Assembly: GCF_040838345.1 (NCBI RefSeq)
Contig: NZ_JBAKFF010000001.1
Location: forward strand, 806,001 to 870,000
DNA: 64,000 nt
Source: Spiribacter sp. 1M189
GTDB lineage: Bacteria; Pseudomonadota; Gammaproteobacteria; Nitrococcales; Nitrococcaceae
Direction of reading: 5' to 3'
The first letter of the stretch is position 1. Each line of letters opens with the position of its first letter. The notes beneath the pieces were generated by a model. That model was not told where the DNA came from. It searched no databases and worked only from the letters and a program-made list of their open reading frames with translations. The position numbers and the translations under genes were made by a program. Below, piece by piece: positions 38,661 to 52,433 of this stretch.

Positions 38661-39415
38661 TATCCGGAATCTCCGTTGAGCTGACGGGCATAGACATCAC
38701 CGGAGCCGGCGGTGTCGGCGTTGGCGCGCAACCAGTCACGCATCCACGCCGGCGACTGCCAGGCCGCCGAGACCATTCTCCGACGCTCGCCGATCGTGGC
38801 GTTGAATCGGTAATCACCCAGTGCCTGCAGGCGATCGATACAGGCTAGCGCACGTGCCCCGCTGCCGCTGACATACTCGAACGATAACGCAGGCAGCGGC
38901 TGGGCCAGTCCCGCAAGGACCGCCTCCTCCGCGCCTTCGACATCGATCTTGCAGAAGGCCGGCACACCGAAGCGCCCGATCAGATCCTCCAGCGTCACCA
39001 CTTCGACCGTCACTTCGCGCTCCCATTGCACATCGGCAAAGCCCGGATTGGCCCGACCGATCTCCCGACGCCACTGGTGATTGAGCGTGGCCAATGTCGG
39101 ATGCCGGTCGCTCATCGCGAGCGTCGCCGTCCCCCGGGATTCACCCACCGCCTCGTCAAGCACCCGGGCATCGGCGTAGCGCCGCAGCCGCCAGGCGAGC
39201 GCACGCCGCAGACCGGGCTGGGGCTCGACGGCCACCACCTGCCCGCCCAGCGCGGCGAAGGCCAGGCTGCGGTCACCCAGATGGGCGCCGATATCGAACA
39301 CCGGTGCGCCGGGTCGCACAAAGGGCCGGTAGAACCGCCGCAGACCAGGCTGACGCCAGGGCGCGCCATAGATCAGCAGTGATCGGGCAAGGCCCATGAG
39401 CTGTCGCGCATTCAT
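38660..39415 (-). CDS. FkbM family SAM-dependent methyltransferase
   Basis: SAM methyltransferase of 251 residues, FkbM family, usually acting on hydroxyl groups of sugars or natural products. SAM motif I reads VFDIGAHLGDRSLAFA, followed by VVAVEPQPGLRRAL and the FkbM hallmark FCKIDVEGAEEAVLAGL. No signal peptide. Its ATG overlaps the stop of the MgtC-like gene by four bases and its stop overlaps the small membrane protein start, giving a three-gene operon. No polysaccharide cluster is nearby, so the acceptor is unknown. Confidence 0.87.
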   Translation of the reverse strand: MNARQLMGLARSLLIYGAPWRQPGLRRFYRPFVRPGAPVFDIGAHLGDRSLAFAALGGQVVAVEPQPGLRRALAWRLRRYADARVLDEAVGESRGTATLAMSDRHPTLATLNHQWRREIGRANPGFADVQWEREVTVEVVTLEDLIGRFGVPAFCKIDVEGAEEAVLAGLAQPLPALSFEYVSGSGARALACIDRLQALGDYRFNATIGERRRMVSAAWQSPAWMRDWLRANADTAGSGDVYARQLNGDSG

Positions 39416-40677
39416 TGCCAGACTGTCACCCCCACCCAGACACCTCCCGCCACAATCACGGCGCCCAGCCCGGCGCCCACCAGCAGCGCCATGCGGCCAC
39501 CGGCGACGCCGGCGGCCAGTCCGAGCTTGACCGCGGTGTTGGCCATGGCCGCAATGATAATGCCACGCTGTGCGACCTCCGCCTGCATCCCCTCCGACGC
39601 CATCCGCGACAGGGACAGCGTAATGGCATCCACATCGGTGAGCCCGGAGACGAGCGAGAGGGCATAGACGCCGGCATCCCCCGCGGTCCGCCGCAGGCCC
39701 TCGGCCGCCACCATGACAATGGCCAGCAGCACCGCGAAGCGCAGTGCCGTTGTGAGCTCGAAGGGCTTCTGCATCGGTGGATGGCTCGGCGCATCCGTAA
39801 TGCGTCGGGCATTCAGGGCAAGCCCCAGGGTGGCGAGCCCGCCCACCACGGTGATCAGCGCCACCGGCGCGTACAGACTGGGCAGCATCTCCGGGCGAAC
39901 GGCACCCACCAGCACGAGGATACGCGGGAACATGGTGGTACTGGCCATGACCACGGCGGCGGCGAACAGCGGCTGGTAGGCCTGTTGGCCACGCGCCGCC
40001 CGCGACAGCGTGAGGGTCAGCGCCGTCGACGAGGCCAGCCCCGCGAAGAACCCGGTCAGCAGAATGCCGCGCCGCGCGCCGGTGAGTCGTACGGCGAAAT
40101 GCCCGACAAAACCGATGGCGCTGATCAGCACCACCATCAGCCAGAGCGTGTGCGGATTCAGGGTATCCCAGGGTCCGTATCCCTTCTGCGGCAGGAACGG
40201 CAGGATCACCGCGCTGATGAGCGCGAGCTGCAGGATGGCCCGCAGCTCGGGGCCGTCGATGCTGCGCAGCAGTTCATGCAACCGTGGCTTGAAGCCGAGC
40301 AGAACCGCCGTCACCACGCCACCGGCCATGGCCAGCAATGGCTCCTCGAGACTCGCCAGCACACCCAGCAGAAACGCCAGGATGGCCGCCACCTCGGTGG
40401 TGATGCCGTAGTCACCGCTCACCCGGACCATGCGGCGGTAACCGAGAATCACCAGGCCCAGCACGCCGGCGAGGGCCACGGGGACGATGGCGTGACCCAG
40501 CCGGTCACCGATCAGCCCGGCGACACCGCCGGCCAGCGCGATCAGCATGAAGGTGCGGATGCCTGCAATGCGCTCGCCCTCACCGGCACCGCGCAGCCGC
40601 CAGCCGCGCTCCAGGCCGATCACCGCGCCCACCATGAGCGCGACGCCCAGCCCCAACAAATGCTCGGTGTTCACCAT
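39412..40677 (-). CDS. MgtC/SapB family membrane protein with DUF4010 domain
   Basis: Integral membrane protein of 421 residues. The N-terminal MgtC/SapB domain (about 10-140) shows GAVIGLERGWRLRG, GIRTFMLIALAGGVAG and YGITTEVAAILAFLLG; the rest (about 170-415) is a DUF4010 membrane domain (GFFAGLASSTALTLTLSR, VSGLTDVDAITLSLSRMA). MgtC proteins are linked to magnesium limitation and acid stress, but this two-domain form has no established function. ATG 40677. It diverges from the NYN-domain gene, with 41 bases between starts. Confidence 0.88.
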   Translation of the reverse strand: MVNTEHLLGLGVALMVGAVIGLERGWRLRGAGEGERIAGIRTFMLIALAGGVAGLIGDRLGHAIVPVALAGVLGLVILGYRRMVRVSGDYGITTEVAAILAFLLGVLASLEEPLLAMAGGVVTAVLLGFKPRLHELLRSIDGPELRAILQLALISAVILPFLPQKGYGPWDTLNPHTLWLMVVLISAIGFVGHFAVRLTGARRGILLTGFFAGLASSTALTLTLSRAARGQQAYQPLFAAAVVMASTTMFPRILVLVGAVRPEMLPSLYAPVALITVVGGLATLGLALNARRITDAPSHPPMQKPFELTTALRFAVLLAIVMVAAEGLRRTAGDAGVYALSLVSGLTDVDAITLSLSRMASEGMQAEVAQRGIIIAAMANTAVKLGLAAGVAGGRMALLVGAGLGAVIVAGGVWVGVTVWQ

Positions 40678-42727: not shown

Positions 42728-43192
42728 GTGCGCCCCGCGGCACCGCACCGGGCCCTCTGGCAGGGTCCGTGGGGCACGCTGCTGCTCATCGGCAACGCCC
42801 GTGTGCTGGTCGCTGCGCGCTTTCAGGGAGGCTGCCCGGCCGGTGACACCGCGTCACCGCCCGATCCCCTGCCCGCCCCCTGGGGCCTGCATCCCACGCT
42901 GCGGCTCGCGCTCACGGGCACGGACTTCCAGCTCGCCGTCTGGCGATCCCTGACGCGCATCGCCTCCGGCGAATGCGTCAGTTACAGTGAGCTCGCCGCG
43001 GCGGTCGACCGGCCCCGGGCGGTGCGCGCCGTCGCCAGCGCCGTCGCGGCCAACCCGCTACCGGTGGTGCTGCCCTGTCACCGGGTCATTCGACGCGACG
43101 GCGGCCATGGCGGCTACATCGGCGGGGCGTCGCGCAAACGTCGACTCATCCATTGGGAGACCAACCACGGGAGTCACCCGAGATGTTCATAG
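42728..43192 (+). CDS. Methylated-DNA-protein cysteine methyltransferase-like protein (Ogt/MGMT)
   Basis: DNA alkyltransferase of 154 residues that should remove alkyl groups from O6-alkylguanine by transfer to its own cysteine. The C-terminal DNA-binding/active domain is complete: FQLAVWRSLTRIASGECVSY, YSELAAAVDRPRAVRAV with the helix-turn-helix arginine finger, and the acceptor Cys117 in VLPCHRV. The N-terminal domain is short compared with Ogt. The only reasonable start I see is GTG 42728. The stop overlaps the photolyase-like gene by ten bases, so the two repair genes are co-expressed. Confidence 0.85.
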   Translation: MRPAAPHRALWQGPWGTLLLIGNARVLVAARFQGGCPAGDTASPPDPLPAPWGLHPTLRLALTGTDFQLAVWRSLTRIASGECVSYSELAAAVDRPRAVRAVASAVAANPLPVVLPCHRVIRRDGGHGGYIGGASRKRRLIHWETNHGSHPRCS

Positions 43193-44415
43193 AGCAGCCC
43201 GAGGCAACCCATTCGGCCGGCCTGGACCGGCTCGCGGCATTCCTGCCCCACGCCGGAGGTGACTATGCCCGCTGGCGCAACCACGACTTCGGCCCCGAGG
43301 GCGACAACCGCGTATCCGGCCTCTCCCCCTGGCTGCGCCATCGGCTGCTGCTCGAGGAGACGGTCATCGACACGGCCATCGATCGACACGGCCTGGATGG
43401 CGCCGAGAAGTTCATCCAGGAGGTCTGCTGGCGGACCTACTGGAAAGGTTTTCTCGAGCGCCGCCCCGTGCACTGGCACGACTATCATGGCGACTGTGAC
43501 GAGGCGCGGCGGCAGCAGGCGAAAGACCGACGACTGGCCGCGGATATCGACCGCGCCCTCGCCGGGGAGACCGGCATTGCGGCTTTCGACGCCTGGGTGC
43601 ACGAACTGCGCGACACCGGTTATCTACACAACCATGCCCGCATGTGGTTCGCCAGTATCTGGGTCTTCACCCTCGAGCTGCCCTGGGCGCTGGGCGCGGA
43701 CTTCTTCCTGCGCCATCTGCTCGACGGCGATCCGGCCTCCAATACCCTCTCGTGGCGCTGGGTGGCCGGCCTGCATACGCCGGGCAAGGCCTACATCGCC
43801 CGGTCCTCCAACATCAACAAGTACACCAACGGCCGCTTCAACCCCGGCTATCAGCTCAACACACAGGTCACGCCACCCGAGGGCATCGAGCGACCGCCCG
43901 TGGGGCCCTCACCGACCGTCGCGGACTGGCGGTTGACGCCCGACTCCGGCCTGCTCATCACCGAAGAGGACCTGTTGCCGGAGACACTGCTCGGCGCTCC
44001 GGACTGGCCGCTGGTCGTGGCCGTGCAGACCACCGACTGGCGCAGTCAGGGCTCGGTGTCCGATCATGTCCGGCGCTTTGCCCGCTCGGGCCTGGAAGCG
44101 GCGCTCGCCCGCAACCCCGGCGCCCGACAGGAAGGCCCCGTCGAACTGATCAGCGAAGCCGATGCCGAGGCAGTGCGCGACGCCGCCCTCGCCGCCGGCG
44201 TCGATCAGCTCCTCACCCCGTGGGTCCCCACCGGCCCGAGCGCCGATGCCATGGCGATGCTGGATGGCGTCCTCGAAGCCGCCGGCATCCGCCGCCAGCC
44301 GGTCCTGCGGGACTGGGATCGGCTGCACTGGCCGGCCGCCACCCACGGCTTCTTCCGCTTCTGGAAGGCGGCCCGGCCGCTGATTGTCGAACGTCAGGCC
44401 GGGCGCCGCGCGTGA
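43183..44415 (+). CDS. Photolyase/cryptochrome-family FAD protein with FAD domain first
   Basis: A 410-residue member of the photolyase/cryptochrome superfamily, presumably a light-driven DNA repair enzyme. The FAD-binding domain starts at residue 1: RVSGLSPWLRHRLLL (about 43-57), FIQEVCWRTYWKGFL (77-91), ELRDTGYLHNHARMWFAS (141-158), HLLDGDPASNTLSWRWVAG (178-196) and SSNINKYTNGRFNP (208-221). The usual N-terminal antenna domain is missing there; residues about 275-405 look like an alpha/beta domain resembling it (PLVVAVQTTDW, AGVDQLLTPWVPTGP, HGFFRFWKAARP). ATG 43183 follows GGGAG and overlaps the Ogt-like gene. Its end overlaps the ATP-grasp gene by 22 bases. Confidence 0.82.
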   Translation: MFIEQPEATHSAGLDRLAAFLPHAGGDYARWRNHDFGPEGDNRVSGLSPWLRHRLLLEETVIDTAIDRHGLDGAEKFIQEVCWRTYWKGFLERRPVHWHDYHGDCDEARRQQAKDRRLAADIDRALAGETGIAAFDAWVHELRDTGYLHNHARMWFASIWVFTLELPWALGADFFLRHLLDGDPASNTLSWRWVAGLHTPGKAYIARSSNINKYTNGRFNPGYQLNTQVTPPEGIERPPVGPSPTVADWRLTPDSGLLITEEDLLPETLLGAPDWPLVVAVQTTDWRSQGSVSDHVRRFARSGLEAALARNPGARQEGPVELISEADAEAVRDAALAAGVDQLLTPWVPTGPSADAMAMLDGVLEAAGIRRQPVLRDWDRLHWPAATHGFFRFWKAARPLIVERQAGRRA

Positions 44416-47053: not shown

Positions 47054-50000
47054 CTAGAGCAGGACGCGTTCGACCCCGCCGTCACGGGCCCGCTCGACGA
47101 ATCGCGCCGACCAGTCCTCGCCCAGCAGCTGCCGGGCCATCTCGGTGACGATGTAATCCGCCTCTACGCCGGTGTCCTCGCGGTAGCGCGAGAGCCCCTG
47201 CAGACAGGCCGGGCAACTGGTCAGCATCTTCGTCGTGCCCGGTGCCGCCACCGGCTCGCCGGTGAGCGCCTCGAGCCCGCCGTTGATCTCCTCTTCCTTG
47301 CGGAAGCGGACCTGGCTGGCGATATCCGGCCGCGCCACCGCAAACGTGCCCGCCTCGCCGCAGCAGCGGTCATTGAGCGGCACGGACTGGCCCATCAGTT
47401 CGCTTGCCACCGATTCGCCGCGGCGGGTTTTCATGGGCGTATGGCAGGGCTCGTGGTACATGTACTGCACCCCTTCAACGCCATCAACGCCGAAGCCCTT
47501 CTCGAGCAGATACTCGTGGATATCCAGCAGCCGGCAGTCCGGAAATATCTGCTGGAATTCGTATTTCAGCAGCTGATCCATGCAGGTGCCGCAGGACACC
47601 ACCACGGTGCGGATGTCGAGATAATTGAGCGTGTTGGCCACCCGATGGAAGAGCACCCGGTTCTCGGTGCTGATCGCCTGGCCCTTCTCGATGTCCCCCG
47701 ATGAGGTCTGCGGGTAGCCACAGCACAGATAACCCGGTGGCAGGACCGTCCGCGCGCCGGCCTCCCAGAGCATGGCGAGGGTCGCCAGGCCGATCTGGCT
47801 GAAAAGCCGCTCGGAGCCACAGCCCGGGAAGTAGAACACCGCCTCGGCGGCCTCATCGGCGCGCTGTGGATCGGCGATGATGGGCACGATGCCCGGATCC
47901 TCCGCTCCCAGCAATTGCCGCATGGTCTGGTTGGGCAGCTTGCCCGGCATGGGTTTTTTAAGGAAATGCACCACCTGAGCCGGTACGCCGGAGAGATCCC
48001 GGGTCGGTTTTGGCCGCCGGCTCACGGCGCTGTCCGGTACGCCGCCACGCGTCCCGGCCATACCCGCCTGGCGGGCCAGGTAGTGCCCCAGGCGCTGGGA
48101 GCCGTAGCCCCACTCGATCATGCCCCGACGCATGATCTTGATGCGGCGGGCATCCTGGATGTTGAGAAACGCCATGGACGCCTTTGAGACCAGGCTCTCC
48201 CGGCGCTTGCCCCGCTGCTTGAGGGCATGGCGCATCTTGATGGTGACATCGCCGTAGTCGATATCCACCGGACAGGGCGTGAGGCAGCGATGGCAGATCG
48301 TGCAATGGTCGGCGATGTCGTTCATCTCCGCCCAGTGCTGCAACGACAGCCCGCGCCGGGTCTGCTCCTCGTAGAGGAACGCCTCGATGAGCAGGTTGGT
48401 GCCAAGGATCTTGTCCCGCGGCGAATACCGCAGGTTGGCCCGCGGAACATGGGTGGTGCAGACCGGCTTGCACTTGCCGCAGCGAAGACAGTCCTTGATG
48501 TCGTCATTGAGCGCGCCGAGCTCGCTCTGCTCGAGGATGAGCGCCTCCTCGCGCACCAGTTGCAGCGAGGGCGTGTAGGCATCGGCGAGCCCGCTGCCGG
48601 CGACGAGCTTGCCGCGGTTGAAGCGATCCTGGGGATCCACCCGCGACTTGTACTCGCGGAAGCGCTCGACCTGCTCGGCGTCCAGATACTGGAACTTGGT
48701 CAGGCCGATGCCGTGCTCGCCGGAGATCACACCACCGAGCGACCGGGCCAGCGCCATGACCTCATCCACAATGCCATCGGCTTCTTTCATCATCCCGTAA
48801 TCATTGGAGTTTACCGGGATGTTGGTATGCACGTTGCCATCGCCGGCATGCATGTGCAGCGCGACGAACAGACGCCGCCGACGGCCCTCGGCGTGGATCT
48901 CATCGAGTCGCCGGCGCAGGGGCTCGAAATCGCGGCCGTCATAGATCTCATGGAGCTTGGCCGCCACCGATGCCCGATAGCTGATGCGCAGATCCCGGCG
49001 CAGCAGCAACTGAATCACGGTATCGCCGGGCTGGACTGCCTGGGCGGCTTCCTCATCAAGGCAGTCGAGGCAGTCCGCCACCGGCGCGTCGAGCTGATCC
49101 AGAATGCGCCGCCAGCGCGTCTCGGCCTCGTCGAGCCTCGCCAGCGCGGCCTGACGCTTGCGGGCGAGGATGCTATCCCCCTCGGCGCTTGCCTTGAGGT
49201 CCTCGCGGGCATGGTAATCGGTGCGGGCCTGCAGCTCGGTGAGCGGGCCGAGCAGCCAGGCCCGGGCCGAATCCAGGATCTCGAGCTTGTTGTGCAGGCT
49301 GCGGATGATGTTGATGCGCTCAATGCCCTCGCTGTAATCCGCCAGCCGGTGGATGGGGATGACGACGTCCTCGTTGATCTTGAAGGCATTGGTATGGGCG
49401 GCGATGGCCGCCGTGCGGCCGCGGTCCGCCCAGAAGGTCCGGCGTGCCTCCGGCGAGGTGGCGATAAAGCCATCCGCATCCCGCGCCTCGACCCGCGCTA
49501 CCATGGCCTCGGCCGCGGCCTGGCAGGCGGCTTCGTCATCGCTCGCCAGATCCGCCAGCAACAGCATCCGCGGCCGCGTGCCACGATCGCCCTTGGGCGC
49601 ATAGTCGACGGCGCGGATATAGCGCTCGTCGAGGTGTTCCAGTCCCGCCAGGGCGACGGTGGGGTTGGCCGCGACATCCTCGATGATCTCGACGATGGCC
49701 GGCACCGCCTGGTGCAGATCGCGGCCGTGGAATTCCATGCACACGGTCCGCATGTGCGCGGGCATGACATGCAGGATGAACCGCGCCGAGGTGATCAGCC
49801 CGTCGCAGCCCTCCTTCTGCACGCCGGGCAGCCCGCCGAGGAACTTGTCGGTGACGTCCTTGCCGAGTCCCGCCTTGCGCAGGCTCGCGCCGGGGAAGGC
49901 CAGTACCGTCGGCTCGCCCCGCGGCGTCCGGCCATCGGGCCCGTAGCGGGTGATGCGAAAGCGCACTTCTGCCTGGTCATGGATCTTGCCGAGGTTGTGA

Positions 50001-50953
50001 TCCAGCCGCTCGACATCGATCCACTCCGCATCCGGCGTGACCATGCGCCAGCCGGCGAGGTTGTCCAGCGTCGTGCCCCATAGCACGGCCTTCTTGCCGC
50101 CGGCATTCATCGCGACATTGCCGCCGATGGTGCTGGCATCCCGCGAGGTCGGATCGACGGCGAAGACATAACCCGCGGCATCGGCGCGATCCTCGACACG
50201 CCGCGTGACCACACCCGCCTCGGCCCGGATGGTGGGTACCGGATCGGCCATGCCCGGCAGTGAACGCATTTCCACCTGGCCCAGGCCCTCGAGCTTCTCG
50301 GTATTGATCACCGCGCAGTGCTCATGCAGCGGGATGGCACCGCCGGTATAGCCGGTGCCGCCGCCGCGGGGAACTACGGTGAGGTCGAGTTCGACGGCGG
50401 CGGCCACCAGTCCGGCCATCTCCGCTTCGGTATCCGGTGTGAGAACGACGAAGGGTACCGCCACCCGCCAGTCGGTGGCATCGGTCTGATGGGCCACCCG
50501 GGTGAGGCCGTCGAAGGCGATGTTGTGCTCGGCGGTGACGCGGGCGAAGGCCTTGCGGGCCCGCTCGCGCAGGGCCTGTGTGGCGGGGAATGCGGCCTGG
50601 AAGTCCGCCACCGCCTGACGACAGCGGCCGGCCAGCGCCAGCGCCTCCGCATTGCCGTCGGCCCGGGCCTCGATCTGCTCGAGGCGATGGTTCATGGCGG
50701 CGACCAGCGCCTCGCGTCGGCCCTGATTGTCGAGCAGATCCTCCTGGATATAGGGATTGCGCCCCACCACCCAGAGATCGCCCAGCACCTCGAAGAGCAT
50801 GCGCGCCGAGATACCGGTGCGGCGTTGGGAGCGCAGCCGCTCCAGCGTGTCCCAGCCATCGGCACCGAGATAGCGGTGGACGATCTCGCGATCGGAAAAC
50901 GAGGTATAGTTATAGGGAATCTCGCGGATTCGGGCGGGGGCGGCGGTAGCCAT
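47054..50953 (-). CDS. DUF3683 FAD-binding/4Fe-4S dehydrogenase (YdiJ/D-lactate dehydrogenase-like)
   Basis: Very large (1299-residue) oxidoreductase related to YdiJ and D-2-hydroxyacid dehydrogenases. Order: N-terminal DUF3683 region (starts [20 protein letters not shown]), FAD-binding type 4 domain ([39 protein letters not shown]), FAD-oxidase C-terminal domain ([30 protein letters not shown]), two 4Fe-4S motifs ([23 protein letters not shown]) and two cysteine-rich CCG domains ([17 protein letters not shown]). It should oxidise a D-2-hydroxyacid and pass electrons to the chain. ATG 50953 begins the conserved region. It diverges from icd across 181 bases. Confidence 0.9.
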
Positions 50954-51134
50954 GGCGGGCGCACTCCGGGGCGTCGTGAATGGGCTCATGGTACGCCAGT
51001 CGCGCGATGAGTGCCCGCGGCAACCTTGCGCCGGATCAAAACGATGCCGAAATCCGACTGCTGTTTTCGCAATGGGGGATATGAAAGAATAGCGCGCGAT
51101 CTGAATTGCCCATGCAGCAAAAGAGAGCATCACT

Positions 51135-52433
51135 ATGAGCACAATCCAGGTTCCCGCCGACGGCGCGCGGGTCACTCTTGAGAACGGCGTTCTGAATGTC
51201 CCCGATAACCCGATCATCACCTACATCGAGGGTGACGGCATCGGCGTGGACATCACGCCGGTCATGCAGCGGGTCGTGGATGCCGCGGTCGAGAAGGCCT
51301 ATGACGGCAAGCGCAAGATCCACTGGATGGAGGTCCTCGCCGGCGAGAAGGCCAACAACGAGCTGGGCGCCTGGCTGCCCGACGAGACCGTGGAGGCCAT
51401 CCGCGAGTACCTCATCTCGATCAAGGGCCCGATGACCACGCCGGTGGGCGGCGGCATCCGCTCGCTCAACGTCGCCCTGCGCCAGGTCCTGGATCTGTAC
51501 GTCTGCCTGCGCCCGGTGCGCTGGTTCAACGGGGTCCCCTCGCCGGTGAAAAACCCCGACCAGGTAGACATGGCGATCTTCCGCGAGAACACGGAGGACA
51601 TCTACGCGGGCATCGAATTCGAGGCGGGCTCGGAGGAGAACCAGAAGTTCAAGGAACTGCTGGCCGAGCATTTCCCGTCGGCCTACGCCAACATCCGCTT
51701 CCCCGAGGAATGCGGATTCGGTATCAAGCCGATCTCCCGCGAGGGCACCGAGCGCCTGGTGCGCGCCGCGATCCGTTATGCCATCGACAACAAGCGCAAG
51801 TCGGTGACCATTGTCCACAAGGGCAACATCATGAAGTTCACCGAGGGCGCCTTCCGGACCTGGGCCTACGAGCTCGCGGAGCGCGAATTCGGCGAGGAGA
51901 CCTACACCTGGGCGGAGTGGGAGCGCACCGTGGCCGAGAAGGGCCAGGAAGCGGCCAACGCCGAGCAGGATGCCGCCGTGGCCGCGGGTAAAGTGCTGGT
52001 CAAGGACTCGATCGCCGACATCACCCTACAGCAGGTGCTGACCCGCCCCACGGATTTCGAGGTCATCGCCACCATGAACCTGAACGGCGACTACCTCTCC
52101 GACGCGCTGGCCGCGCAGGTGGGCGGTATCGGCATCGCCCCGGGCGGCAACATCAACGAGCAGACCGGCCATGCCGTGTTCGAGGCGACCCACGGCACCG
52201 CGCCGAAGTACGCCGGCAAGGACATGGTCAACCCCGGCTCGCTGGTCCTCTCCGCGGAGATGATGCTGCGCCACCTGGGCTGGAGCGAGGCGGCCGACCT
52301 CATCCTCACCGGGATGGATGCGGCCATTGCCAGCAAGCATGTGACCTATGACTTCGCCCGCCTGATGGACGGCGCGACCAAGGTGAGCTGTTCGCAGTTC
52401 GGCGAGGCGATGATCAAGCGCATGCAGGACTGA
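51135..52433 (+). CDS. icd: Isocitrate dehydrogenase (NADP+)
   Basis: TCA-cycle enzyme oxidatively decarboxylating isocitrate to 2-oxoglutarate; 432 residues, the E. coli-type homodimer. The substrate/phosphorylation loop [13 protein letters not shown] places the AceK target serine at residue 110; [15 protein letters not shown] and [17 protein letters not shown] are also present. ATG 51135 is preceded by AAGAGAG. A TCA gene next to aceK makes its regulation by phosphorylation explicit: aceK starts 35 bases downstream on the same strand. Confidence 0.96.

Follow-up and report, generated by a model that had tools for sequence, protein, structure and literature searches.

A probable NewPHL photolyase of inverted domain order in Spiribacter sp. 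1M189 and the likely relation of its C-terminal domain to the photolyase antenna

A gene of Spiribacter sp. 1M189, which belongs to a genus of halophilic Gammaproteobacteria, encodes a photolyase-like protein whose flavin adenine dinucleotide (FAD)-binding domain comes first and whose second domain comes last, and thereby raises the question of whether this order marks a new class, an unrelated fusion or an enzyme of a kind already described. The gene lies in a 64,000-nucleotide stretch of contig NZ_JBAKFF010000001.1 (positions 806,001 to 870,000), here called the window, whose own numbering is used throughout. A first-pass annotation, made from the sequence alone, had proposed a circularly permuted photolyase/cryptochrome with an antenna-like domain at its C terminus. 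We conclude that the gene very probably encodes a NewPHL, that is, a light-driven cyclobutane pyrimidine dimer (CPD) photolyase in which the catalytic FAD domain precedes a divergent antenna-type domain that has been relocated to the C-terminal end. The gene, an open reading frame (ORF), and its domains are as follows.

43183..44415, plus strand: NewPHL-type photolyase gene with inverted domain order, 410 amino acids (ORF, Pfam, phmmer, AlphaFold2, homologues, literature)
43207..43887, plus strand: N-terminal FAD/catalytic domain, residues 9–235 (PF03441, VIA-align, FAD-site residues)
43942..44388, plus strand: C-terminal alpha/beta domain, residues 254–402, putative counterpart of the NewPHL 'Z-domain' (profile comparison, VIA-align)

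The ORF runs uninterrupted from an ATG start, and the placement of the FAD domain at the N terminus, as first proposed, was borne out. Pfam places FAD_binding_7 (PF03441) at residues 77–208 (4.3e-23), and a phmmer search of the PDB paired residues 11–205 with residues 205–396 of the Escherichia coli photolyase 1dnp, which indicates that the FAD domain begins at the N terminus, where the canonical inter-domain linker would end; among the matches listed, no PDB stretch extends past residue 221. The AlphaFold2 model built from 74 sequences (predicted local distance difference test score (pLDDT) 96.2, predicted template modelling score 0.94) shows a helical domain followed, from residue 255, by five strands alternating with helices, and its residues 3–233 align with residues 172–415 of the Thermus photolyase 1iqr chain (VIA-align Z 17.6, 2.5 Å, 211 residues). 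Modelled by itself, the C-terminal domain (C-domain) was again predicted with confidence (pLDDT 94.8), with the same alternation of five strands and helices. Searching for homologues of the same order, as the first-pass annotation had suggested, confirmed at least 577 relatives in a scan of genome contigs; 80 were kept, in which the matches run from residue 1–20 to residue 392–410, that is, over the full length. Because full-length relatives are so numerous, the reversed order is not a product of chance. The family alignments used below (n = 74) hold the window protein and 73 of the 80 loci; L054, L055, L059, L063, L067, L069 and L075 were omitted, L063 having no clear start.

Is this order new? 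The available portions of one paper describe, in cyanobacteria, the adjacent ORFs phr4 and phr5 for a FAD domain and a photolyase domain in reverse order, phr6 as their fused form, and phr7 with an N-terminal FAD domain and a C-terminal Z-domain, the latter termed an atypical, short photolyase domain; the NewPHL class, shown in Dinoroseobacter shibae and Methylobacterium mesophilicum to act on single-stranded DNA, is placed there closest to the iron–sulphur (Fe-S)-bearing Phr4/Phr6, but without their cysteines (PMC9426592). The accessible text of a second paper treats 'NewPHLs or SPLs' as one group of inverted domain topology (PMC13274461), where SPL denotes the short photolyase-like proteins; an excerpt of another uses SPL for spore photoproduct lyase (PMC12029717). 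A new, undescribed class of circularly permuted photolyase/cryptochrome is consistent with the reversed order and the antenna relation, both supported here, and with three annotated plasmid members that are named only 'FAD-binding domain-containing protein', but it can be given almost no credence, as characterized homologues of the same order, which the first-pass annotation had itself named as grounds for refutation, have been published, in the parts of these sources at hand, under the names NewPHL and, in cyanobacteria, Phr4/5, Phr6 and Phr7 (PMC9426592, PMC13274461). The window protein is best taken as a further member of a photolyase class already described: the order is real, and the novelty claimed for it in the first-pass annotation does not stand.

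With NewPHL of D. shibae and M. mesophilicum and with Prochlorococcus Phr7 the window protein shares an N-terminal FAD domain, a C-terminal second domain, a tryptophan dyad and the want of a complete Fe-S cysteine set; it differs in coming from Spiribacter and in the overlap of its gene with an Ogt-like gene. The cyanobacterial phr4/phr5 (split) and phr6 (fused) likewise place the FAD domain before the photolyase domain, but have four Fe-S cysteines, three of which the window family lacks. SPL are described, in the published text available, as lacking the alpha/beta domain, with mention of an Fe-S cluster. Four Fe-S cysteines are reportedly present in some SPL members, according to work by Xu in 2021. 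The window protein, like SPL, has no N-terminal alpha/beta domain, but it has one at its C terminus and its family keeps at most the first Fe-S cysteine position; the absence of cysteines 2–4 is compatible with SPL membership, because the feature is optional. Class I CPD photolyases (E. coli 1dnp, A. nidulans 1owl) have the same FAD-site residues and two domains, but with the antenna at the N terminus, an outer tryptophan of the triad and a FAD domain that extends further at its C-terminal end; 36 canonical sequences form one clade that excludes the window family, and the N-terminal antenna of class I is not found in the window protein. Two other assignments were rejected: DASH photolyase, as the protein scores 65.1 bits against a TIGR02765 cut-off of 317.05, and FeS-BCP, as it lacks both the four cysteines and the DPRP-type N-terminal domain. 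NewPHL reportedly stands in for DASH enzymes, and in line with this none of the three PF03441 genes of the Spiribacter genome reaches the DASH cut-off. That genome also holds two photolyase/cryptochrome genes of canonical order and a separate PF04244 (FeS-BCP-type) gene.

What, then, is the C-terminal domain? In hhalign, its profile aligned with that of 36 diverse canonical antenna domains at a score of 35.7 (74.3%, P 2.7e-5) over 92 columns and in the expected register, and over 138 columns when extension was permissive. Of the two stretches in which the first-pass annotation saw a likeness to the second half of the antenna domain, AGVDQLLTPWVPTGP lies inside the default alignment at the corresponding position, and HGFFRFWKAARP pairs with the end of the antenna domain only under the permissive extension. 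Narrow antenna profiles scored more weakly (26.8, 17.6%, for one canonical group; 21.7, 4.0%, for the other), and comparison with them in global mode gave nothing. For scale, the C-domain profile scored at most 19.9 (mean 14.0) against 30 control families, which are mechanical ORF clusters from the flanks and may include wrong-frame ORFs, and 21.8, 18.7 and 17.6 against universal stress proteins (Usp), electron transfer flavoproteins (ETF) and FeS-BCP, respectively. The N-terminal domain of FeS-BCP is the accepted counterpart of the canonical antenna domain. Because the canonical antenna profile reaches 28.2 with FeS-BCP and 30.0 (34.1%) with Usp, the 35.7 is by itself suggestive, not decisive. 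The profile of seven intermediate domains, which come from Deinococcus, Persicobacter and one pseudomonadotan genome, reached 97.2% (P 4.2e-11, 130 columns) against the canonical antennae and 95.4% (P 1.8e-8, 137 columns) against the window family, and scored at most 21.3 against the 30 controls, 27.7 against Usp, 15.6 against ETF and 31.6 against FeS-BCP. It is from this transitive link, which covers the whole domain, that we derive the probable kinship between the C-domain and the antenna at the N terminus of canonical photolyases.

Structure comparison agrees in part. The proposed structural check of the C-domain returned photolyases at VIA-align Z values as high as 8.6 (151 residues), with matches that begin near the chain starts, and among the top 50 Foldseek rows 17 of 18 photolyases/cryptochromes had query template modelling scores of 0.42–0.60 and the remaining one 0.39, all other rows being at or below 0.40. 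Several results nevertheless weigh against an antenna: Foldseek gave no match for the C-domain at E ≤ 0.001; the CARF protein Cam1 ties with the photolyases in VIA-align (Z 9.0 for 105 residues, and 8.4 for another two of its entries); a search of PDB sequences with the C-domain profile listed no photolyase, its best match (0.0039) being the cyclic-di-GMP-binding BdcA; the antenna family PF00875 does not match the window protein alone and matches only 4 of 74 C-domains (best 0.0038), whereas BLH_phosphatase, the commonest Pfam match, finds 10 of 74 (best 1.8e-5); and, as the antenna–Usp score illustrates, proteins that merely share the fold can come near 30. Of these, the Cam1, BLH_phosphatase and antenna–Usp results are also the grounds on which a FAD domain fused to a non-antenna alpha/beta domain of the CARF, Usp or phosphatase type might be entertained. 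We consider such a fusion highly improbable, since the score to the antenna stands well clear of those to Usp, ETF and the control families, the intermediates join both sides at low P values, and many photolyase rows in VIA-align span about 150 of the 165 residues. A BLH_phosphatase identity was rejected, that match covering only about 45 residues.

CofH was above its cut-off in none of 23 genomes of the family, Spiribacter sp. 1M189 included, with weak matches in six of them and none in its own, which makes a home-made 8-hydroxydeazaflavin (8-HDF) antenna cofactor unlikely. In the portions of the literature available to the search, no statement links the Z-domain to the antenna by sequence, although two primary papers may say more.

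The catalytic domain keeps its key residues. Y28, S45, L47, S48, E80, W83, R84, N150, M154, D181, D183 and N187 are found in each of the 74 aligned sequences. Motif mapping onto 13 FAD contacts given in the available text of PMC9426592 found nine identical (Y28, S45, L47, S48, R84, N150, D181, D183 and N187) and two different (Val44 for Thr and Ser186 for Ala, neither invariant among the 74 members), two more not being confidently mapped. The window protein has His151 where 36 of 36 canonical rows have Arg, which might point to a cryptochrome-like light sensor devoid of repair activity; we regard such a sensor as very unlikely, because E80, W83 and M154, which we take to be the glutamate, tryptophan and methionine of the CPD site, do not vary. 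Two NewPHL are moreover reported, in the accessible parts of the papers, as CPD photolyases on single-stranded DNA (PMC9426592, PMC13274461).

Of the electron-transfer chain, the two inner tryptophans, W168 and W191, are invariant in the 74-member alignment; the column of the outer one holds Trp in 25 of 36 canonical rows and in none of 21 family rows, within a poorly aligned loop. An excerpt of a further paper credits D. shibae NewPHL with 'a mere Trp dyad' (PMC8948257). A dyad is less secure in two respects: 8 of 74 members have a Trp one position from the outer column, in this same loop, and W98, present in 70 of 74, could act as an alternative electron donor. The assignment to NewPHL is drawn from likeness to published descriptions of the class; the sequences of published members (UniProt A8LJA9, of D. 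shibae, M7YZC8, Q2N8F4 and B6IPR5) did not turn up in the collections searched.

As a NewPHL, the protein would work as follows. Blue or UV-A light would excite reduced FAD bound in the helical domain, the flavin would pass an electron to the CPD and then recover it, and photoreduction of the flavin should use the tryptophan dyad, not a triad. By analogy with the published NewPHL members, the enzyme may prefer single-stranded DNA. The C-domain probably packs on the catalytic domain. In work by Emmerich in 2020, its role is said to be that of sealing the FAD site.

How close is the family to the Fe-S-bearing short photolyases? In a search of 398 genomes of the phylum, the best match below the family itself was a four-cysteine short photolyase (149.2 bits, the rest at or below 112.3). 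Across 73 aligned rows, four Fe-S SPL (Deinococcus wulumuqiensis, D. psychrotolerans, Deinococcus sp. QL22 and genome G038; the AJ005 protein was assessed visually) have their four cysteines in the columns occupied by those of 10 of 10 FeS-BCP. In the window family cysteines 2–4 are absent, and the first position is Cys in 38 of 74 members and Ala in the window protein. These relatives have the antenna either fused C-terminally or encoded in an overlapping gene just downstream, a layout like that of cyanobacterial phr4/phr5. The G038 protein has 284 residues from a presumed ATG, with a FAD domain and four cysteines (L243 1387–2238, minus strand), and its stop is overlapped by the GTG start of a gene for 146 residues of antenna type (L243 947–1387, minus strand), which alone has no Pfam or NCBIfam match at E ≤ 0.1. 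Three Fe-S-bearing Deinococcus plasmid proteins (L286, L287 and L292) have an antenna-type domain fused at the C terminus, and PF00875 matches two of them (0.001 and 0.00072, below the curated cut-off). On a plasmid of Deinococcus sp. QL22, an Fe-S-type FAD protein (257 amino acids, L288 1357–2130) overlaps an antenna-type gene (L288 2127–2648) whose 173-residue product is annotated as hypothetical; from its layout, the pair is a candidate two-subunit photolyase outside cyanobacteria. Two Persicobacter plasmid proteins resemble another fused form, with no PF00875 match.

Three groups outside the canonical clade show the reversed order, fused or split. The FAD-domain tree places the canonical (36), window-family (21), FeS-BCP (10) and Persicobacter (2) sequences in one clade each, with starred support, and the four Fe-S SPL have support of 92/76; the fork among the Persicobacter, Fe-S SPL, window-family and canonical groups is not settled, with a long-branch warning and a bootstrap that did not stabilize. 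The term 'circularly permuted' describes the order; that permutation was the mechanism is unproven, since relatives encode the antenna as a separate downstream gene and fission followed by re-fusion fits as easily. We raise tentatively, and with some doubt, a different history in which the Z-domain is the moved antenna domain and no newly acquired part, SPL and NewPHL descend from a two-gene state (an Fe-S FAD protein and an antenna protein) later joined as FAD–antenna, and canonical photolyases and cryptochromes arose from the opposite fusion. If so, a separately encoded antenna partner would belong to the 'antenna-less' short photolyases that have been put forward as ancestors.

The locus thus may make a small addition to an established class, namely support from sequence for reading the Z-domain as a relocated antenna. 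Beyond cyanobacteria, too, Fe-S-type short photolyases keep an antenna, either joined to the C terminus or encoded by a gene that overlaps theirs. This is relevant to the proposal that photolyases and cryptochromes descend from antenna-less SPL, and the QL22 pair offers a two-subunit candidate that can be put to the test.

Within even samples of the phylum, counting Spiribacter sp. 1M189, 19 of 299 genomes match the window protein at E ≤ 1e-60 and 23 of 398 score at least 389 bits. Of the 23 genomes in its taxonomic family, 16 give a match at E ≤ 1e-30, including 14 of 14 of the genus; in one of the latter (G016) the photolyase gene is interrupted by contig ends. Two scans of viral contigs found no relative; in ten phage records, matches cover no more than 55% of the window protein and 63% of the QL22 FAD protein. 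At 11 of the 80 loci (L006, L017, L023, L030, L050, L061, L066, L072, L073, L077 and L080) a second photolyase-type ORF, of canonical order, adjoins or lies near the NewPHL gene.

Immediately upstream lies the gene that the first-pass annotation had described as coupled to the photolyase.

42728..43192, plus strand: methylated-DNA-protein-cysteine methyltransferase-like (Ogt-like) gene (DNA_binding_1 PF01035 4.7e-28, PCHRV motif)

Its product scores 99.7 bits against a TIGR00589 cut-off of 46.4, and the photolyase start overlaps the last 10 bases of this ORF. The two genes do adjoin, but the linkage was seen in this genus only: an Ogt-like gene stands beside the photolyase in 15 of 104 loci, all from Spiribacter (14 after merging L004 with L124, which appear to be one record and are counted once where stated), and in the other 89 none was found in flanks of up to about 6 kb, shorter at contig ends. 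The two form a pair of direct-reversal repair genes found throughout the genus. Elsewhere in the window, the minus strand encodes a 1,388-residue ORF (47054–51220) that by eye joins a FAD-linked oxidase to Fe-S cluster and CCG-type domains, and an MgtC-family membrane protein with a DUF4010 domain (39415–40677).
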